From contig NZ_AP028947.1 in NCBI RefSeq assembly GCF_036323495.1, positions 1,054,001 to 1,118,000 of the forward strand: DNA of 64,000 nt. Direction: 5' to 3'. The stretch's first letter is position 1. Each line of letters starts with the position of its first letter. The translations under genes and the position numbers were made by a program. The DNA comes from Limnobacter thiooxidans. GTDB taxonomy: Bacteria > Pseudomonadota > Gammaproteobacteria > Burkholderiales > Burkholderiaceae_B. Below, piece after piece: positions 33,374 to 61,110 of the stretch. The notes below the pieces were generated by a model, which was given only the letters and a program-made list of their open reading frames with translations, was not told where the DNA came from and did not search any database.

Positions 33374-34147
33374 ATGAACACGAACATCGACGCAATTTTC
33401 AATTTGCTGGCTGGAACAGCCCGCGGCTGGCGCGGAACTGGCGTAACTGCCCGCGCCCGAAAAACACCTGAAAAACCCTTGAAGCTGTATGACATCGAGA
33501 TCAGCCCCTATTGCCGACTGGTGCGTGAAGCCCTGTCTGAAATGGATCTGGATGTGATCATCTTGCCTTGCCCTGTCGGCAGCAAGCGCTTTCGCGACGA
33601 GGCCCGCGCCTTGTTGCCCGGTACAAAATTCCCGATGCTGGTCGATGACAACACCGGCGTGGTAATGAACGAATCGGCCAACATCATCGATTACCTGGCC
33701 AAAACCTACGACAGCAAGCTGAAAAGCCAACAAGGCGTGGGTCGAAAAGTGGCAGTGGGCAGTTCGGTACTGGCCAGTTTGTTCCAGTACCGTATTGGTG
33801 GTTTTCAGGGCATGAAAGCACGGCCTGCCAAAGTGCCAGCGGAACCCTTGGTGTTGTACAGCTTTGAGGCAAGCCCTTATTCAAAACCAGTGCGCGCGCG
33901 CCTGTGCGAATTGGAAATACCGTACCTGCTGAAAAACACCCCCAAGGGCAAGATGACCGACCTGGGTCCTGCGGTGTTTCGCGACAAGCTGTTCAAAGGC
34001 CCAAAGGCCACCACACGTAACCGTGCATGGCTGGCGGAAAACACGGGCCATGTTCAGGTGCCGTACCTGATTGACCCGAATACGGGTGTGGCGATGTACG
34101 AGTCGAATGACATCTTGCGTTATCTGGATTCGACATACGGGGCGTAA
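33374..34147 (+). CDS. Tandem GST-N/glutaredoxin-like domain protein
   Basis: A 257-residue protein with two copies of a thioredoxin-fold GST N-terminal domain. The first (about residues 35-115) has 'LYDIEISPYCRLVREAL' and ends 'MNESANIIDYLAKTYD'. The second (about 158-256) has 'LYSFEASPYSKPVRARL' and ends 'MYESNDILRYLDSTYG'. The first keeps one Cys in the active-site loop (SPYC); the second has Ser (SPYS), so only the first could form a mixed disulfide. No GST C-terminal helical domain is present. A glutathione-linked role is likely. A structured repeat lies downstream. Confidence 0.8.
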   Translation: MNTNIDAIFNLLAGTARGWRGTGVTARARKTPEKPLKLYDIEISPYCRLVREALSEMDLDVIILPCPVGSKRFRDEARALLPGTKFPMLVDDNTGVVMNESANIIDYLAKTYDSKLKSQQGVGRKVAVGSSVLASLFQYRIGGFQGMKARPAKVPAEPLVLYSFEASPYSKPVRARLCELEIPYLLKNTPKGKMTDLGPAVFRDKLFKGPKATTRNRAWLAENTGHVQVPYLIDPNTGVAMYESNDILRYLDSTYGA

Positions 34148-34218: not shown

Positions 34219-34381
34219 AGTCTCTCTCCCGCCAGAAAGCCTGAACTCCCCCTTTTGAAATTCACACTGACTCACCTCGATCGGCAAAAAAGATGGCCGA
34301 ATCGAGGTGTCGGCCAATGGCCGAACGTGGCGTGTGAATTCAAAACGGGCAGGCTTTCTTGAAAGGCGGTGCGAGGGACAT
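34219..34381 (+). repeat. Structured intergenic repeat, copy A
   Basis: A multi-arm palindrome. The central stem CACCTCGATCGGC (34273-34285) pairs with the opposite arm (34296-34309), with one bulged A, across the loop AAAAAAGATG. A second hairpin follows directly: TCGGCC, aat, GGCCGA (34310-34324). Outside these, TTTTGAAATTCACAC pairs with GTGTGAATTCAAAA, AGAAAGCCTG with CAGGCTTTCT, and GTCTCTC with GAGGGAC. It lies after the GST-like gene in the same direction. Confidence 0.75.
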
Positions 34382-34548: not shown

Positions 34549-34729
34549 GGTGTTCGTTTGCTGCATCATCTTGCCGATTCAGGGCAAGGCTTCCCGGCTG
34601 ATTCGCAGCGCGGGGCGATTGCGCAAGCAATCGATGCGAGCACGCTTTGGCGTGTCGCATGACCCAAGCCAGAATCAAGAAGTCGGGAAATCAGCCTTGT
34701 CCAAGGCGAGATGAGCGGCAACGAACTCC
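34549..34729 (-). repeat. Structured intergenic repeat, copy E (divergent member)
   Basis: Read on the minus strand, outer arms of about 25 bases pair (34549-34575 with 34705-34729), an inner arm carries TGATTTCCCG, and the centre is ATGCGACACGC, caaa, GCGTGCTCGCAT. A second hairpin, CGATTGC/GCAATCG with a 4-base loop (34616-34633), follows directly. The order of parts matches copies A-D, but the loop has only CAAA. It lies just after the stop of the KAS III-like gene and faces copy A. Confidence 0.6.
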
Positions 34730-34790
34730 GACCAAAGCTTACGCAACAAGCGAAATCGGCAGCAGCGAACACCGAACAAAGCTTGCGCAA
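34702..34790 (+). repeat. Two tandem imperfect ~44-base direct repeats
   Basis: 34702-34746 and 34747-34790 share the order CAAG, CGA..AT, GCGGCA/GCAGCA, GCGAAC or ACGAAC, CCGA, CAAAGCTT, CGCAA, with about 80% identity by eye. The first copy forms part of the outer arm of structured repeat E. There are no spacers, so this is not a CRISPR array. Confidence 0.6.
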
Positions 34791-34801: not shown

Positions 34802-35926
34802 TCAGGTTTTACGTACCACCACGCTGCCAATCGAGTAACCAGCCCCAAACGAGCAGATCACACCCACATCACCCTGCGCCAAGTCGGCACTGTGTCGGTG
34901 GAAGGCAATCACGGAGCCGGCAGACGCGGTGTTGGCAAATTCATCAAGAATGACGGGTGCTTTGTCGGCGCTGAAGTCGCTGTTGCCCAACAGTTTTTTG
35001 GCAATCAACTGGTTCATGGCCAGGTTGGCCTGGTGCAGCCAATAACGTCGCACGTCGTTGGCTGAATTCAGCCCCAAGCTTTCGAGGTGGGTGCTCATGT
35101 GTTCTGCGGCCATGGGGCACACTTCCTTGAACACTTTGCGGCCTTCCTGCATGAACAGCTTGTCACGCGCATCGGGCTTGGCATCTTCGGAACGGTTCAG
35201 GAAACCATAGTTGTTGCGAATATTGTTTGAAAACTTGGTGGCCAGCTTGGTGCCCAACACTTCCCAACTGCCCGGTTTTGCATCTTCAAGGCGTTGAACA
35301 ATCACCGCTGTACACACATCACCAAAAATGAAGTGGCAATCACGGTCCAACCAGGCCTGGTGGCCCGAGGTGATTTCAGGGTTGACCATCAGTACCGCAC
35401 GGGCTGTGCCGCTGCGCACTGCGTTCACAGCCTGTTCAATGCCGAAGGTGGCCGACGAACAAGCCACGTTCATGTCGTAACCAAAACCTTGAATGCCCAG
35501 TGCTTCCTGAATTTCAATAGCCATTGCCGGGTAAGCGCGCTGCATGTTCGAGGCGGAACAAATTACCGCGTCAATTTGATCGGCTGTCAGCCCTGCTGCA
35601 TCCATCGCTTTGCGACCCGCATCGACGGCGATTTCAGCCATCATGGACAATTCTGAATTCGCGCGTTCCGAGAAATAGGGGTGAAGGCGGTCCGGGTTCA
35701 GGATGCCTTCTTTTTCCATCACATAACGCTGCTTGATGCCGGATGCGCTTTCAATGAAAGCCGAGTTGGAAGGTTGCAGCGGCTGCAATTCGCCGCTGGC
35801 AATTTCATCTGCATGCGCTTCATTGAATTTCGCCACATAGGCATTAAACGATTCCACCAATTCATCGTTGGTGATGGTTTGGCTGGGCACGAAAAGCCCT
35901 GTGCCGCTGATGGCTACCTTGATCAT
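34802..35926 (-). CDS. Beta-ketoacyl-ACP synthase III-like condensing enzyme
   Basis: A 374-residue thiolase-fold enzyme with the KAS III triad: Cys in '[14 protein letters not shown]', His in '[13 protein letters not shown]' and Asn in '[11 protein letters not shown]', the last with the usual glycine-rich end. It would condense an acyl-CoA or acyl-ACP with malonyl-ACP. At 374 residues it is longer than housekeeping FabH (about 320), with an insert of about 40 residues near the N-terminus, so a specialised lipid or secondary-metabolite role is likely. It stands alone. The start has AGGA upstream. Confidence 0.85.
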
Positions 35927-38225: not shown

Positions 38226-38434
38226 GCGGCTAATGAAGGTCGGCAGTGGTTGTACCCGTTACGCAATTAAAGAAAACCACCCCGATTGAGCAGAGTTTGA
38301 ATGGTCGGCTGCAGGCCGACACCTGGGTGCGACCATCTTTTTTGTCGCGCCCAGGTGAATGCAAAGCCTGGCTCAATAAGGGAATAAGTGGTTTTCATGC
38401 GGAACGGGGGCGCCACGCCGAGCCCATTAACGCC
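38226..38434 (-). repeat. Structured intergenic repeat, copy C
   Basis: On the minus strand the central stem is GTCGCACCCAGGTG (38320-38333) paired with CACCTGGGCGCGAC (38344-38357), one wobble pair, with the 10-base loop AAAAAAGATG, identical to copy A. The hairpin TCGGC/GCCGA (38305-38319) follows directly. Outer pairings include GAAAACCAC with GTGGTTTTC, and a long imperfect arm at both ends. It lies 34 bases after the stop of the gene at 38469 and reads in the same direction. Confidence 0.75.
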
Positions 38435-38468: not shown

Positions 38469-39248
38469 TCAAGCCGCGAAATACGCCTTCATGCGGTCTG
38501 CATAGCCCATTTCTTCGGCCTTGGCCTTGGCCAAACCGCGGAAAGCGGAATTAACCTTGTCAGTCAATCTGGCCATGCGTTCCTGTGCCTTGGCATCCAT
38601 TTCAGCAGTAATCAAACCCACTTCAACCATCAGGTTGGCATCTGCAAATGCGGCAGCAATCAGTGCGATCAACTTATCGTCGTTGAGCTGACCCGCCAGC
38701 TTGGCAATCCGGTCTTTGCGCTGCGCGTAAAAGGAGATGTGCAGGTTGGCAGCCGGGTCTTTGATCACTTCCATGATCTCAAGCGCTTTTTTCTCTGGAA
38801 TGTAATCGGTGAAACCACCCAGCACGTGGAAGTCACCCTGCTCAACCAGCTTGGCTGTCACTTTCTTGAGTTGTTCCACGGGCAATTCGGCCAGCATGTC
38901 CACTGCGCGTTCCGGGATCTGTTCGCGCGCCACATCGGCCATGAATTCTGCGTCAAACAGCTTGCACAGGCTGACTGCTTTGCTCATCGGCGTGAAGTAG
39001 GACATGTTGGCAGTAATCGCAGGGCCAAACACCTTGGTGCACAGGGTGGCACTGATGGAATCGGGGGCCAGTTTGCCTGCACCCGCGATGCGTTCAAACA
39101 CTGGGCCAAATTTGTTCAGCAGGCTGTTCTGAAAATTGGTGCGCAGTTTCTGCAGCGCCACTGCATCCAGTTTGTCCAGGTAGGTCAATTCCTCGGCCGA
39201 CTTGTGAAGCGCTTGGGCCAGGCGGCGTAGTTCTGTGTTTCTGTCCAT
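38469..39248 (-). CDS. Conserved-looking hypothetical protein
   Basis: A 259-residue soluble, mostly helical protein. It contains 'AVDMLAELPVEQLKKVTAKL' and similar later segments, which recall the repeated helices at the N-terminus of MgtE-type magnesium transporters, though no membrane part is present. It follows the 70-residue gene on the same strand after 3 bases, so the two are co-transcribed. The role is unknown. Structured repeat C lies just beyond its stop. Confidence 0.65.
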   Translation of the reverse strand: MDRNTELRRLAQALHKSAEELTYLDKLDAVALQKLRTNFQNSLLNKFGPVFERIAGAGKLAPDSISATLCTKVFGPAITANMSYFTPMSKAVSLCKLFDAEFMADVAREQIPERAVDMLAELPVEQLKKVTAKLVEQGDFHVLGGFTDYIPEKKALEIMEVIKDPAANLHISFYAQRKDRIAKLAGQLNDDKLIALIAAAFADANLMVEVGLITAEMDAKAQERMARLTDKVNSAFRGLAKAKAEEMGYADRMKAYFAA

Positions 39249-56887: not shown

Positions 56888-58798
56888 ATGGGCGCATTTG
56901 ATTTTTTCAACAAGAAACAGATTACTGAACAAACTGAAGCCCTTGAGGCGATGCAACGCAAATTGAGCGAATGCGAGTTTGTACTGACCGCAGTGAGCAA
57001 GGCGCAAGCCATGATCGAGTTCAAGATGGACGGTACCATCATTACAGCCAATGACAACTTCCTGCGCACCATGGGGTATACGCTTGACGAGATCAAGGGC
57101 AAGCACCACAGCATGTTCGCCGACACTGGAGTGAGTGGTTCGATCGAATACCGCCAGTTCTGGGACAAGCTGAACCGGGGCGAATACGATGCGGGTCAAT
57201 ACAGGCGCATTGGCAAAGGCGGTAAAGAGGTCTGGATTGAAGCCAGCTACAACCCGATCATGGATGCTACTGGCAAGCCTTACAAAGTAGTGAAGTTTGC
57301 CACTGATATTACCCAGGCCACATTCAGCGCAATCTTCAACAGGCGTGCACTGGGCGGCCTGGAGAATGTTGAAGTGAACGTGATGTTGGCTGATGCCAAT
57401 TTCAATATTGTGTACGGCAATGCATCGCTGACTGACATGTTGCGCCGGGCTGAAAGCGATATTCGCAAAGATTTGCCCCATTTCAATGCAAGCAAAATCG
57501 TGGGTACCAACATTGATGTGTTCCACAAGAATCCGTCGCACCAGCGAGGCATGCTGGCCAACCTGAAAGGCACGCACAAAACCGAGCTTAAAGTGGGTTC
57601 CTGCACTTTTGACCTCACGGTGAATCCGATTGACGACGACCATGGGGCTCGTCTGGGCTATGTGGTGGAATGGCGTGATCGAACTGCCGAAGTGGCCATG
57701 GAGGCCGAAATTTCAAGTGTGGTGGCTCGCGCAGCAGAAGGTGATTTCAGTGAACGTATTCGTGAAGACAACAAGCGCGGATTCTTCAAAACCCTTGCAC
57801 AAAACGTGAACGGTTTGTTGACCACCACGTCGGTGGGTCTGGAAGATGTGGGTCGCGTTTTGAAATTGCTCGCCAATGGCAACATGACCCAGAAAATTAC
57901 AGCCAACTACAAGGGGTTGTTTGGTGAAGTCAAAGACGATGTGAACGCCACTATCGACCGTTTGAGTGACGTGATTGAGGATGTTCGCGGCAACGCCGAT
58001 TCACTGACCAATGCTGCACGCGAAATTTCAAAAACGTCGCAAAGTTTGTCGCAAGGTGCAAGTAGCCAGGCAGCGGGTGTGGAAGAAGTGTCCGCTAGCA
58101 TTGAGCAGATGGCAGGCTCCATCAAGCAGAACAGCGAGAACAGCCGAGTGACCGACCAGATTGCGACCAAGGCTGCGGAAGAGGCCAAGGAAGGCGGCCG
58201 CGCCGTGATTGAAACCGTGAACGCGATGAAAGCGATTGCCGGAAAAATCAGCATCGTGGACGACATTGCTTATCAAACCAACCTGTTGGCCTTGAATGCA
58301 GCCATTGAGGCTGCCCGTGCCGGTGAGCACGGCAAAGGCTTCGCCGTGGTGGCTGCCGAAGTTCGCAAACTGGCGGAGCGCAGCCAGGTGGCCGCGCAGG
58401 AAATTGGTGATTTGGCCAGCAGCAGTGTGAAGCAGGCGGAGCGCGCAGGCAGTTTGCTGCAAGAGATGGTTCCTGCAATCAACCGCACTTCTGACTTGGT
58501 GCAGGAAATTACCGCTGCATCGAACGAGCAGACCAATGGCGTTGCACAAATCAACCAGGCCATGATGAGCCTGAACCAGCAAACCCAGCAGAATGCAGCA
58601 GCCTCGGAAGAGTTGGCGGCAACGGCCGAGGAAATGAGTGGACAGGCCAGCATGCTGAACAATGCCATGAGCTTCTTTGACACCGGAAGCAGCCGACCCC
58701 GAGCCAAGGCCCGCCCGGCAGAACGCAGACCCTCGACCGGCAAGTCTGGCGCATCACACCACGCAGCAGACGCTTTTGACAGCTTTGATGAATTTTAA
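56888..58798 (+). CDS. Soluble PAS-containing chemoreceptor (Aer-like)
   Basis: A 636-residue methyl-accepting chemotaxis-type protein with no membrane helix. A PAS domain (about 20-135: '[20 protein letters not shown]', '[19 protein letters not shown]') is followed by a second PAS-like domain (about 155-265), a HAMP-like stretch and the signalling domain with '[20 protein letters not shown]' and '[17 protein letters not shown]'. PAS domains suggest sensing of redox, oxygen or an internal ligand. The last 30 residues are basic and low in complexity and end 'FDSFDEF'. It lies between cheA and cheW in one operon. Confidence 0.9.
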
Positions 58799-58811
58799 GG
58801 AAACAGTCGAC

Positions 58812-59336
58812 ATGAGCAACATCAATGAACAACTGGCCAAGGCCATGGAGAGTGACAGCGCCAGCCACCAGTATTTGACCTTCCAGGTACATGGTCAGAA
58901 GCTGGCTGTGGAAATTCTTCGAATCAAGGAAATCATTGAATTCGGTAGAATCACGGTCGTTCCCATGATGCAGCAATGCATCAGTGGCGTGATCAATCTT
59001 CGTGGTTCTGTGGTGCCGGTGGTGGATCTGAGCGCGCGGTTTGGCCAAGGCAAAACGGAAGTAAACCGCCGAACCTGTATCGTGATTCTTGAATCACAAA
59101 TGGCCGAAGAAACCCAGGTGGTTGGCTTCATGGTGGATGCCGTGAACGCCGTGGTTGATATTGGTGCTGACTCGATTTCTCCGCCACCACAGTTTGGCGC
59201 TGGAGTGCGAACCGACTTCCTGCGGGGAATTGGCAAGGTCGATGAAGAGTTTGTGTTGGTGCTGAATGTGGAGCGTCTGCTCGACTTCGACATTCCTTCT
59301 GACCTTGAGGAAGTGGCCGCAGCGGCTGTGGCGTAA
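58812..59336 (+). CDS. cheW: Chemotaxis coupling protein CheW
   Basis: A 174-residue CheW: 'YLTFQVHGQKLAVEILRIKE', 'MQQCISGVINLRGSVVPVVD' and 'VLNVERLLDFDIPSD' are the family motifs. I start at ATG 58812 (MSNINEQ), 13 bases after the receptor stop, with AAGGAAA upstream. It links the receptor array to CheA. It is the last gene of the chemosensory operon and is followed closely by structured repeat B, in the same direction, where a terminator would be expected. Confidence 0.92.
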   Translation: MSNINEQLAKAMESDSASHQYLTFQVHGQKLAVEILRIKEIIEFGRITVVPMMQQCISGVINLRGSVVPVVDLSARFGQGKTEVNRRTCIVILESQMAEETQVVGFMVDAVNAVVDIGADSISPPPQFGAGVRTDFLRGIGKVDEEFVLVLNVERLLDFDIPSDLEEVAAAAVA

Positions 59337-59373
59337 ATACGCCTAGACCTTGCAGCCTGGCTAAGTTAGTTGA

Positions 59374-59585
59374 GCAGAAGTAGTGAAGCCCGGCTACCCC
59401 GAGCACCTGCATTGCCAGAAAACCTGTATTCCCTTTTGATTGAACCCATTGCTCACTGAATTCGGCAAAAAAGAAAGCCGAATTCAGTGTTGCCCCTTGG
59501 GCACACGCGCTGGAATCAATCCAAAGGGCAGGTTTCCTTGAAGGCAATGCAGGTGCTCGGGGTAGCCGGGCTTCACTACTTCTGC
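59374..59585 (+). repeat. Structured intergenic repeat, copy B
   Basis: The outer arms are a perfect 43-base inverted repeat (59374-59416 with 59543-59585). Inside lies an interior stem and the central hairpin CACTGAATTCGGC (59454-59466), loop AAAAAAGAAA, GCCGAATTCAGTG (59477-59489). The second hairpin TGCCC, ctt, GGGCA (59491-59503) follows directly. Shared words are GAAAACCTGTATTCCC on the left and GGGCAGGTTTCCTTG on the right. It lies 38 bases after the cheW stop. Confidence 0.9.
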
Positions 59586-59652
59586 GGCGTCTGCGGCGTC
59601 TGCGGCGTCTGTAGCGTCTGTAGCGTCTGTAGCGTCTGTAGCGTCTGTAGCG
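59581..59652 (+). repeat. Tandem 9-base repeat, eight units
   Basis: Units TCTGCGGCG (three) then TCTGTAGCG (five) run without spacers and share the first bases with the right arm of repeat B. A degraded ninth unit follows (TCTGTCGGCG). It probably arose by slippage. The minus-strand reading frame with Ala-Thr-Asp repeats is a by-product. Confidence 0.9.
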
Positions 59653-59679
59653 TCTGTCGGCGTGCTCACGTCAGCCGGT

Positions 59680-59888
59680 GGCGTTGAAAGCCTACAGGTT
59701 CAATTGTCACGGCCTGCGATTCAAGGAAATCTGCCAGCAGCAAGTGATGCGGCCTGTTCACCGAAGGTGAAAAGTCGAGCTCGCCTTTTTTGGCGAGTCG
59801 ACTTTAGTGCAAGCATCACGAAGCATGCTGGAAACACAGATTTCCAAGCAGGCTGTCCAATTGACCTGGAGGCTTACAACGCAACGCC
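59680..59888 (-). repeat. Structured intergenic repeat, copy D
   Basis: Oriented opposite to B. The central stem AAAGTCGAGCTCGCC (59771-59785) pairs with GGCGAGTCGACTTT (59792-59805) with one bulge and a loop of six A on the minus strand. The second hairpin TTCACC, GGTGAA (59757-59771) follows directly on that strand. The outer arms (59680-59717 with 59850-59888) are long and imperfect. It shares GGCAGATTTCCTTG (minus) with B. It precedes the cyclase gene by about 190 bases. Confidence 0.85.
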
Positions 59889-60078
59889 ATGGCTTCCCCA
59901 GTAATCAGCGCTGGCCTCCACCTAGCCGGACCCAGCATTTGACCTTCCTCTCACTTGCAGCTAGCGTACGTCCAAACAAGCTGTGAAAAGCCGTTCAACA
60001 CCCACCTCGGGGATAGCCCCTTGTCCGTGCTTCATGAGAAACCAGATCTGTCCAACATCATTCTGGGGCGAATAAAGG

Positions 60079-61110
60079 ATGTATTCATTTAAACAGGTTC
60101 TAGACTTGGCCGACAGCACCGCCCGTGCTCAGCAGCGCATGGTGTTTTCAGGGCTTTCTTTTCTGATCGTCCTGTTTCTTGCGCCTGGGGGTGCAATATC
60201 AGGCGATCCCGTCATGTTGTCCTGGATGGTGCTGTTGACTGTGCATTTTTCGGCGGCGATGTTGCAGGCCTGGCTGATTTCCCGACAGGAAGTTCACTGG
60301 GAAAAAATCGAGCTTCCCAGTTATTTGCTGGACCTCCCCTTGATTGGCATGGGCCTCGCTGTGGCTGGAGAATACCTCGCCGTGTTTTCGCCTTTGCTGG
60401 CGGTGGTGGCCCTTGTTCGTGGCATCCGTTACGGGCCTTGCATGTTGGCCAGTCACACCGCTGTGGCCGTGGTTATCGTTCTGTTGTTGAGTTGGTTTGT
60501 GCCATTCTGGGGTGGGTACGACATTCTTGTCATGGCCAATCTCTTTCTGCTGCTTATCCTGCCTGTTCAGTTTTATGGTGTCAGTGTCAAGATTCAAGCC
60601 AGTTCAAAATTGCTGCGGCAGGAAAACCTGACCGACCCCCTGACCCGCAGCTTGAATCGCAAAGCACTGGAAGCGGCAGTGTGGCGTGTGCTCAACACGC
60701 GAGAACCGTTTGTCATTTCCTTTCTTGATCTGGACAATTTCAAGATGGTAAATGACACCATGGGGCATGCCACTGGTGACAAGCTCTTGCGCCGCCTGTG
60801 CGCAAAGCTGTCTCTGAGGCTGCGCGTGGAAGACAAGGTGTATCGAGTTTCCGGTGACGAGTTTGTGGTGCTCAGTGTGGGCGCGGTGCGTCAGGAGCTG
60901 GCGGAAAGTCTGGGGCAGCGTATACAGGCTGCAATTGCAGAAGTGGTTCAGTACACCTGTCCCGAGTTGCCTGTCTCGGCCAGTGTCGGTGTGATCGTCG
61001 TGAACACTTTTGAAGACGTCAGTCTCGAGCAACTGCTGCTTGCAGCCGACCGTCTGATGTATCAAGCCAAGAAGGCTGGAAAAAACCGGGTCATTGTGGA
61101 GCAGGCTTAA
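60079..61110 (+). CDS. Membrane-bound diguanylate cyclase
   Basis: A 343-residue protein with five or six membrane helices (about residues 20-165) and a GGDEF domain (about 180-340). The active-site motif is 'SGDEF' in 'VYRVSGDEFVVLS'; Ser in the first position is a tolerated variant. The 'RVED' five residues upstream matches the inhibitory I-site (RxxD). It would make cyclic di-GMP from GTP, linking to motility and biofilm control. It lies after the chemosensory cluster, but about 740 bases with two structured repeats intervene, so it is not the same operon. Confidence 0.88.
   Translation: MYSFKQVLDLADSTARAQQRMVFSGLSFLIVLFLAPGGAISGDPVMLSWMVLLTVHFSAAMLQAWLISRQEVHWEKIELPSYLLDLPLIGMGLAVAGEYLAVFSPLLAVVALVRGIRYGPCMLASHTAVAVVIVLLLSWFVPFWGGYDILVMANLFLLLILPVQFYGVSVKIQASSKLLRQENLTDPLTRSLNRKALEAAVWRVLNTREPFVISFLDLDNFKMVNDTMGHATGDKLLRRLCAKLSLRLRVEDKVYRVSGDEFVVLSVGAVRQELAESLGQRIQAAIAEVVQYTCPELPVSASVGVIVVNTFEDVSLEQLLLAADRLMYQAKKAGKNRVIVEQA

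Follow-up and report, generated by a model that had tools for sequence, protein, structure and literature searches.

A window of 64,000 nucleotides (G000:C1:1054001-1118000) was analysed from the single-contig 3.54-Mb genome of a Limnobacter, the source genome G000. Toward its end, between cheW and a GGDEF gene, two large structured repeats, B and D, stand head to head. A sequence-only reading had taken them for either a structured RNA or a REP/BIME- or IS200-like element that moves through folded single-stranded DNA. The locus raises the question of what kind of unit the pair is, how it came to its sites and what keeps its fold.

Anatomy and extent of the repeat family

Copy B had been described as a perfect 43-base outer inverted repeat around a perfect 13-base stem with a hairpin directly 3' of it, and each part was recovered. 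The outer arms are 100% complementary over 43 nt, the central stem (59454-59466 / 59477-59489) is 100% complementary over 13 nt and closes a 10-nt loop, and the side hairpin lies directly 3' of this stem in the computed fold. As also described, D is inverted relative to B, has a six-A loop and carries its hairpins in the same order. The words common to the copies, GGCAGGTTTCCTTGAA / TTCAAGGAAATCTGCC, form an inverted pair of 16 nt (94%). The features are:

59374-59416, + strand: copy B 5' outer arm (43 nt), pairing without mismatch with 59543-59585
59414-59545, + strand: copy B core, end-to-end match to covariance model R1 (104.8 bits)
59454-59489, + strand: copy B inner hairpin, 13-bp stem with loop AAAAAAGAAA at 59467-59476
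59491-59503, + strand: copy B side hairpin, 5 bp with a 3-nt loop, from the fold
59543-59585, + strand: copy B 3' outer arm, inverted-repeat partner of the 5' arm
59581-59652, + strand: spacer between B and D, eight tandem 9-mers TCTG(CG/TA)GCG
59673-59893, no strand assigned: copy D hairpin including its outer helix, approximate full extent, from the fold
59717-59849, - strand: copy D core, divergent subtype with head GGAAATCTG, R1 match of 57.3 bits
59786-59791, - strand: copy D six-A loop, read on the - strand

The predicted folding energy of B is -153.4 kcal/mol on the + strand and -160.0 kcal/mol on the - strand (shuffle means, -64.0 and -67.5; z = -19.9 and -23.5), and that of D is -114.4 kcal/mol on the - strand and -123.5 kcal/mol on the + strand (z = -7.8 and -10.0). 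The more stable fold is thus on the complementary (-) strand for the B core and on the + strand for the D core. The nine-mer array follows directly after B and is missing from the counterpart locus in genome G009 (L036), whose B is without its 3' arm.

A DNA search of the source genome gave 18 matches, 16 of them elsewhere than B-D, and the same search over 30 genomes gave matches in 12 including G000, all of one genus, with G014 contributing a 30-nt match only. Covariance model R1 was built from 33 copies and covers 135 positions plus arms. It listed 90 copies in the 3.54 Mb of G000, including B but not D; with D and one further copy matched later, the count rose to 92 and then to 94. Copies are present in 13 of 16 Limnobacter genomes, G000 counted, and the largest per-genome counts are at least 83. 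Two of the 13 have only two copies each, and two of the three genomes without copies are incomplete (85% and 65%). G014, G004 and G015 have only 2, 2 and 0 copies at a completeness of 99, 100 and 93%. Outside the genus, R1 found copies in 0 of 24 genomes and, in a wider set, in 0 of 397, where 8 candidates per genome went through strict filters that could miss weak relatives. No plasmid or phage match was found to the one type-1 copy searched. The repeats are a real, large family, genus-restricted among the genomes searched, and further copies had been the sequence-only reading's own test of the idea. The window holds others besides B and D:

34231-34366, + strand: copy of subtype t1b (R1, 135.6 bits), between convergent genes 33374-34147 (+) and 34802-35926 (-)
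34551-34740, no strand assigned: family 5, partner palindrome of the t1b copy, folding into an outer helix with two hairpins
38264-38400, - strand: copy of subtype t2 (R1, 114 bits), just 3' of gene 38469-39248 (-)

The unit folds into a hairpin of ~200 nt that contains a three-way junction and a loop rich in A. The folds of six copies drawn from different subtypes agree in most parts: an outer helix, P2 (AAAACCTG/CAGGTTTT in type 1), an internal loop, a helix, and then the inner hairpin with the A-rich loop together with the side hairpin, which is paired otherwise in one of the six (L029). Among 264 copies, 100 are type 1, 81 type 2, 28 type 1b and 55 other. Subtype consensus sequences show that the outer arms are subtype-specific and that the 5' arm is repeated outside them. 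In L034 (2240-2358) a type-2 outer arm is amplified as a 36-nt tandem repeat of 3.3 copies, and repeated outer arms are visible at other sites.

Stem sequences vary with pairing kept, as had been seen by eye. In an alignment of 119 distinct, related rows fitted to the model, the covariation score was 0.498 compared with 0.158 in shuffles (0 of 500 as high), so that covariation exceeds chance, and 40 of 42 helix pairs were changed on both sides. In the same rows 93.5% of cells pair; shuffling lowers this to 74.6%, and no slid version exceeds 51.3%. Orthologous copies of G000 and G009 were then compared with helices defined on one member of each comparison. In 28 such copies, 41 helix pairs had exchanged both bases for a different Watson-Crick pair (~3 expected if changes are independent), and 6 were changed on both sides without pairing. 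One-sided departures from pairing were common (A.C 53, G.T 31, other 50, compared with the 41 compensated). The per-base change was 7.7% in helices and 247 of 1769 at unpaired core positions.

Facing pairs, their sites and their inheritance

Arrangement was scored on 267 non-redundant copies from fetched loci, a set biased to the best-scoring copies per genome. A neighbour closer than 800 nt is present for 203 of them, and among 102 such neighbour pairs 100 are '+-', 2 are '--' and 0 are '-+'. The '+-' spacer is 56-291 nt, with a median of 155 nt. One pair at what appears to be the same site has a spacer of 1248 nt in G000 (L029 2001-3510) and 156 nt in G009 (L032 12014-12430), a difference that amounts to an insertion or deletion inside the pair. 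Type-1b copies look single, yet of 21 in G000, 19 are accompanied on the spacer side, and none on the outer side, by a second palindrome, family 5. Family 5 is itself a second large palindrome family; the fetched loci hold it at 38 places in 10 genomes.

Gene context was taken from a coding-score gene caller that had been trained on the window, and 158 of 165 sites had enough flank. Convergent genes surround 106 of these sites, 27 and 20 are tandem, 4 are divergent and 1 is undetermined; in the window, 7 of 56 adjacent gene pairs are convergent. A gene call overlaps 16 of the 158 sites, the others being intergenic, and since some genes are misplaced by the caller these context counts are estimates. 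They supersede a longest-ORF count (19 of 36 convergent). The median distance from the core to the end of the neighbouring gene is 99 nt at pair sites between convergent genes. The repeats are extragenic inverted doublets.

Most compared sites are inherited in common today, and the sites are partly old. Of 24 sampled G009 sites, 19 match a G000 copy site on both flanks, 2 more are the halves of the long-spacer pair, and the remaining 3 map by a single flank, which in one case is a repeated sequence. This correspondence gives no sign of recent movement. The same comparison yielded no clean empty site with a target duplication, and the relatives without the pair are too diverged for its ends or a target duplication to be placed. 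The cheW-GGDEF gap is 746 bp in the window, 112-132 bp in six relatives and 248 bp in one, and no copy was found in these seven short-gap loci. The G009 locus (L036) has a core resembling that of B and a remnant of D; in L038 the site holds other genes. The B-D pair was apparently gained within the genus, loss in the other genomes being the alternative.

Order within sites is not fixed. At two-copy sites with both flanks matched, copy order was kept in 74 of 88 comparisons, which span several genomes and are not independent; the other 14 fit an exchange better, some of them narrowly. The convergent site after gene 33374-34147 was located in 14 genomes. The copy runs along the gene direction in six (L124, L125, L126, L129, L130, L132) and opposite to it in four (L127, L131, L133, L134); no copy was found in the other four loci (L128, L135-L137), of which L136 and L137 have another gene next. 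Where family 5 was read, by eye, it lies on the other side accordingly. Whole pairs stand in either order at one site, which shows recombination between inverted repeats here. Copies are present in 5 of 14 loci (L109-L113) at the site after gene 38469-39248.

Folding strand and orientation to the replication fork

A helix mismatch that reads G.T on one strand reads A.C on the other, so mismatches distinguish the two strands of a palindrome. The 5' half of each copy was aligned to the reverse complement of its 3' half with equal scores for every kind of mismatch, and a mismatch counted only if two matches bordered it on both sides; 216 of 267 copies were usable (in 50 of 266 the loop was not clear). 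Totals for the strand as first described were A.C 204 versus G.T 52 and pyrimidine-pyrimidine 216 versus purine-purine 57, with 42 of the 216 at one T.C position. The core (A.C 65, G.T 14) and the arms (A.C 139, G.T 38) share the bias, which is about fourfold for transitions and transversions alike. In G000 alone A.C to G.T was 84 to 17, split into 44:9 for + copies and 40:8 for - copies, and G011 and G012 together gave 40:11. The bias holds in each subtype, and is as strong in type 2 (A.C 65, G.T 17); A.C exceeds G.T at 43 helix positions, with the reverse at 9. Since the copies of a family share ancestry, the p-values treat them as more independent than they are.

A tRNA control gave two tRNAs and zero mismatches, and 6S RNA was therefore taken as the control. 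The sense strand of 16 6S RNA genes, two of them under the Rfam cut-off, contains G.T 27, A.C 1, purine-purine 17 and pyrimidine-pyrimidine 2. The bias is ~4:1 in the repeats compared with 27:1 in 6S RNA. The complementary strand of the repeats is dominated by G.T and purine-purine mismatches, like 6S RNA, which argues that the outward strand of each pair folds. The minimum free energy agrees: the complementary strand is predicted to be more stable in 250 of 266 copies (type 1, 94/102; type 1b, 27/28; type 2, 78/81; other, 51/55). Judged by these sequence-based measures, the outward-pointing, complementary strand of each copy is the folding strand, with a tolerance of mismatches as in RNA or single-stranded DNA. 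The signature also appears in changes at sites shared by G000 and G009, with 24 between Watson-Crick and A.C and 7 between Watson-Crick and G.T (25 copies, p = 0.003). Other genome pairs, which are not independent, gave A.C 35 and G.T 5.

What is new here is that the helix mismatches are strand-biased. Asking which strand accepts wobble and purine mismatches, measured against 6S RNA, provides a test that needs the sequence only and separates an RNA or single-stranded DNA constraint from a double-stranded one, and it could be applied to REP, ERIC and NEMIS as well.

Orientation to the replication fork was determined with dnaA at G000 position 116 and the terminus set at half the chromosome. The type-1 top strand runs against the fork in 39 of 51 site clusters, ties left out (p = 0.0002). 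Per genome, type 1 and 1b together are fork-opposed in 32/44 (G000), 10/12 (G011:C1), 6/6 (G008) and 5/7 (G012:C3), and each type-1 subtype alone is weaker (25/35 and 16/20). At G000 convergent sites the value is 26/34, and there gene direction cannot confound the bias. Type 2, which faces type 1, has the reverse tendency (9/28, p = 0.09). The GC skew of the fetched G000 loci flips sign between 1.75 and 2.0 Mb, and the test was rerun with the terminus at 1.9 Mb, giving 37/50 (p = 0.0009). A type-1 top strand that opposes the fork places, by geometry, the type-1 folding strand on the lagging-strand template. This placement is a bias, not a rule, and it points to spread as single-stranded DNA.

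Proposed spread and maintenance of the pairs

We favour, with a probability of roughly 0.48, the view that the repeats are an ancient, REPIN-like element, spread in the form of folded single-stranded DNA and now mostly inherited vertically, its fold still kept. The unit would be the facing pair of two different ~200-nt hairpins, not the single palindrome, non-autonomous and restricted to the genus. Inside its outer helix each hairpin has an asymmetric internal loop, followed by a junction that bears a short side hairpin and the longer A-loop hairpin. At the replication fork, where the lagging-strand template is exposed, the pair would have folded as single-stranded DNA and been copied into new intergenic positions by a putative enzyme that recognised the hairpins and is lost or unrecognised. 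Most of the compared sites are now inherited in common, mostly between convergent genes, with the folding strand still kept. The bias persists at shared sites and is equally strong in type 2, whose folding strand lies on the other template, and spread alone explains neither; maintenance in place is where an RNA role could enter.

The family works in a REPIN-like way but is not a member of the REPINs. REPINs, or REP doublets, are described as extragenic, high-copy inverted palindromes with a spacer, compensatory changes and predicted single-stranded DNA or mRNA hairpins, and GI doublets have two 16-mers that start 71 bp apart in genomes that carry RAYTs (PMC3116915); REPs are given as 20-40 bp long (PMC3733652). 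The Limnobacter repeats and the REPINs of Pseudomonas and E. coli share a pair of inverted palindromes with a spacer as the unit. Unlike a REP, the Limnobacter palindrome is ~200 nt with a two-hairpin junction, far above 20-40 bp, and unlike in REPINs the pair members are of different subtypes, no fixed GTAG/CGTC word exists and G000 has no RAYT match. With both strands counted, 129 of 266 copies have GTAG/CGTC words within their 2 x 45-nt flanks, none at a fixed place (most frequent position, 16 occurrences). The Y1 transposase (PF01797) had 0 matches in G000, where a REP-type tyrosine transposase gene had been suggested as a check, 0 in the 13 good-quality genomes of the genus, and matches in 1 of 16 overall. 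That one, G009, is a bin with 6% contamination, and its two ordinary IS200/IS605 matches (L275 and L276, contigs C97 and C102) may be contamination; no repeat-model match above 15 bits lies beside them. REP/RAYT membership was rejected on the transposase result, size and the absence of a fixed word.

IS200/IS605 ends are described as forming subterminal secondary structures with single-stranded intermediates, and IS608 and ISDra2 are said to target the lagging-strand template (PMC6006769), a placement that type-1 repeats share. Unlike IS200/IS605, G000 has no Y1 transposase match and the Limnobacter hairpins face each other. ERIC (RU-1, 127 bp) and YPAL (RU-2, 168 bp) of enterobacteria are intergenic, make target duplications (ERIC with a 7-bp TIR) and give transcripts that fold into long stem-loops, with orientation crucial to the effect of ERIC on mRNA; Correia/NEMIS repeats of Neisseria (~107 and ~155 bp) have a 24-bp TIR and transcripts proposed as RNase III substrates (PMC2229807, in part). 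Compared by description only, the available part of that source mentions no facing two-subtype pair for ERIC/YPAL, and Correia/NEMIS differ in host and in their 24-bp TIR. No Rfam 15 family was over its gathering score for 58500-60500 (one sub-threshold match, E = 2.2), and literature naming Limnobacter contained no paper on such repeats, judged by the listings. As far as searched, then, no named family matches, as the sequence-only reading had it. Of its two proposals, structured RNA and folded single-stranded DNA both predict a strand-specific fold, which was found; facing doublets and fork-oriented placement favour a REPIN/IS200-like way of working, and membership in those groups did not hold.

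The main rival is a structured RNA, in which each pair encodes two RNAs, both running away from the spacer, or forms folded stretches of longer transcripts, and the fold is selected. We regard it as possible but doubtful. The G.U and purine-purine mismatches of the folding strand resemble those of the 6S control, the signature persists in changes since the G000/G009 split, two-sided changes far exceed expectation (41 versus ~3) and sites are common to several genomes. Set against this, the bias is well below that of 6S RNA, no Rfam family matched, and sigma-70-like sites were found in 0 of 100 spacers, where resampling from a first-order chain rather than exact shuffles gave 3.7 (sd 2.0), and in none of 59300-60100, where shuffles gave 0.5 and power is low. 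In tandem contexts the signature occurs also in paired copies whose upstream gene would read the wrong strand (A.C 23, G.T 2; 24 copies), as it does where that gene reads the right one (A.C 22, G.T 7; 23 copies); a read-through 3'-UTR model is thus unsupported for pairs, the bias being independent of the sense of reading. Single copies gave 11:1 in the wrong sense (8 copies) and 1:1 in the right one (7 copies). The same counts weigh against a further reading, which we consider unlikely: that the repeats terminate transcription in both directions, or protect mRNA 3' ends, where genes converge, with the distal copy serving each gene. That view draws on the excess of convergent over divergent sites (106 and 4 of 158) and on the short distance to gene ends, while 59300-60100, the sole site scanned, has 0 intrinsic-terminator-like sites (GC hairpin, then T run; shuffles 1.0). 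It is conceivable, though not the outcome we expect, that the repeats are a novel class of structured RNAs, or of signals in single-stranded DNA, that come in pairs, are selected in place and are not merely a remnant of transposition. G000 has 61 sites, and in the majority hairpins of two related but distinct kinds face each other where genes converge; each chromosomal strand would then carry one properly folding copy per pair. With these repeats the poorly explained intergenic palindromes of bacteria gain a large, well-populated family. Since strains of the genus are in culture, a part in transcript ends or in conflicts between fork and transcription can be tested directly at the convergent-gene sites.

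A role as double-stranded DNA, in a cruciform or as a binding site for protein, with hairpin-templated repair as the sole keeper of pairing, would suit the perfect 43-bp arms of B and the exchanged copy order, both in 14 of 88 comparisons and after gene 33374-34147. Such a strand-symmetric process predicts no strand bias relative to the element, and the fourfold bias makes it very unlikely. Early counts on fitted alignments, G.T 152 and A.C 91, had looked unbiased; a single G.T-rich column supplied 75 and a single A.C-rich column 22. Restricting the count to isolated mismatches reversed this picture, and the DNA-level palindrome was rejected. Least probable, at the very margin of what we would entertain, is that the repeats are attC sites of the genome's own integron. 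attC sites are imperfect palindromes whose hairpins work on one strand, and G000 has an integron integrase (G000:C1:2438434-2439375; L251 1501-2442; TIGR02249, 444 bits over the whole model) with attC-like sites adjoining. These hairpin sites start and end in CCTAAC/GTTAGG-like words, which we take to be the attC motif, and the facing repeats are without them. Whereas attC sites stand in arrays beside intI, the repeats are dispersed as facing pairs, with no array beside the integrase and no repeat-model match above 12 bits in four integrase loci; attC identity was rejected because the integron's own sites differ. Partial matches to the integrase are also present in G001, G014 and G009.
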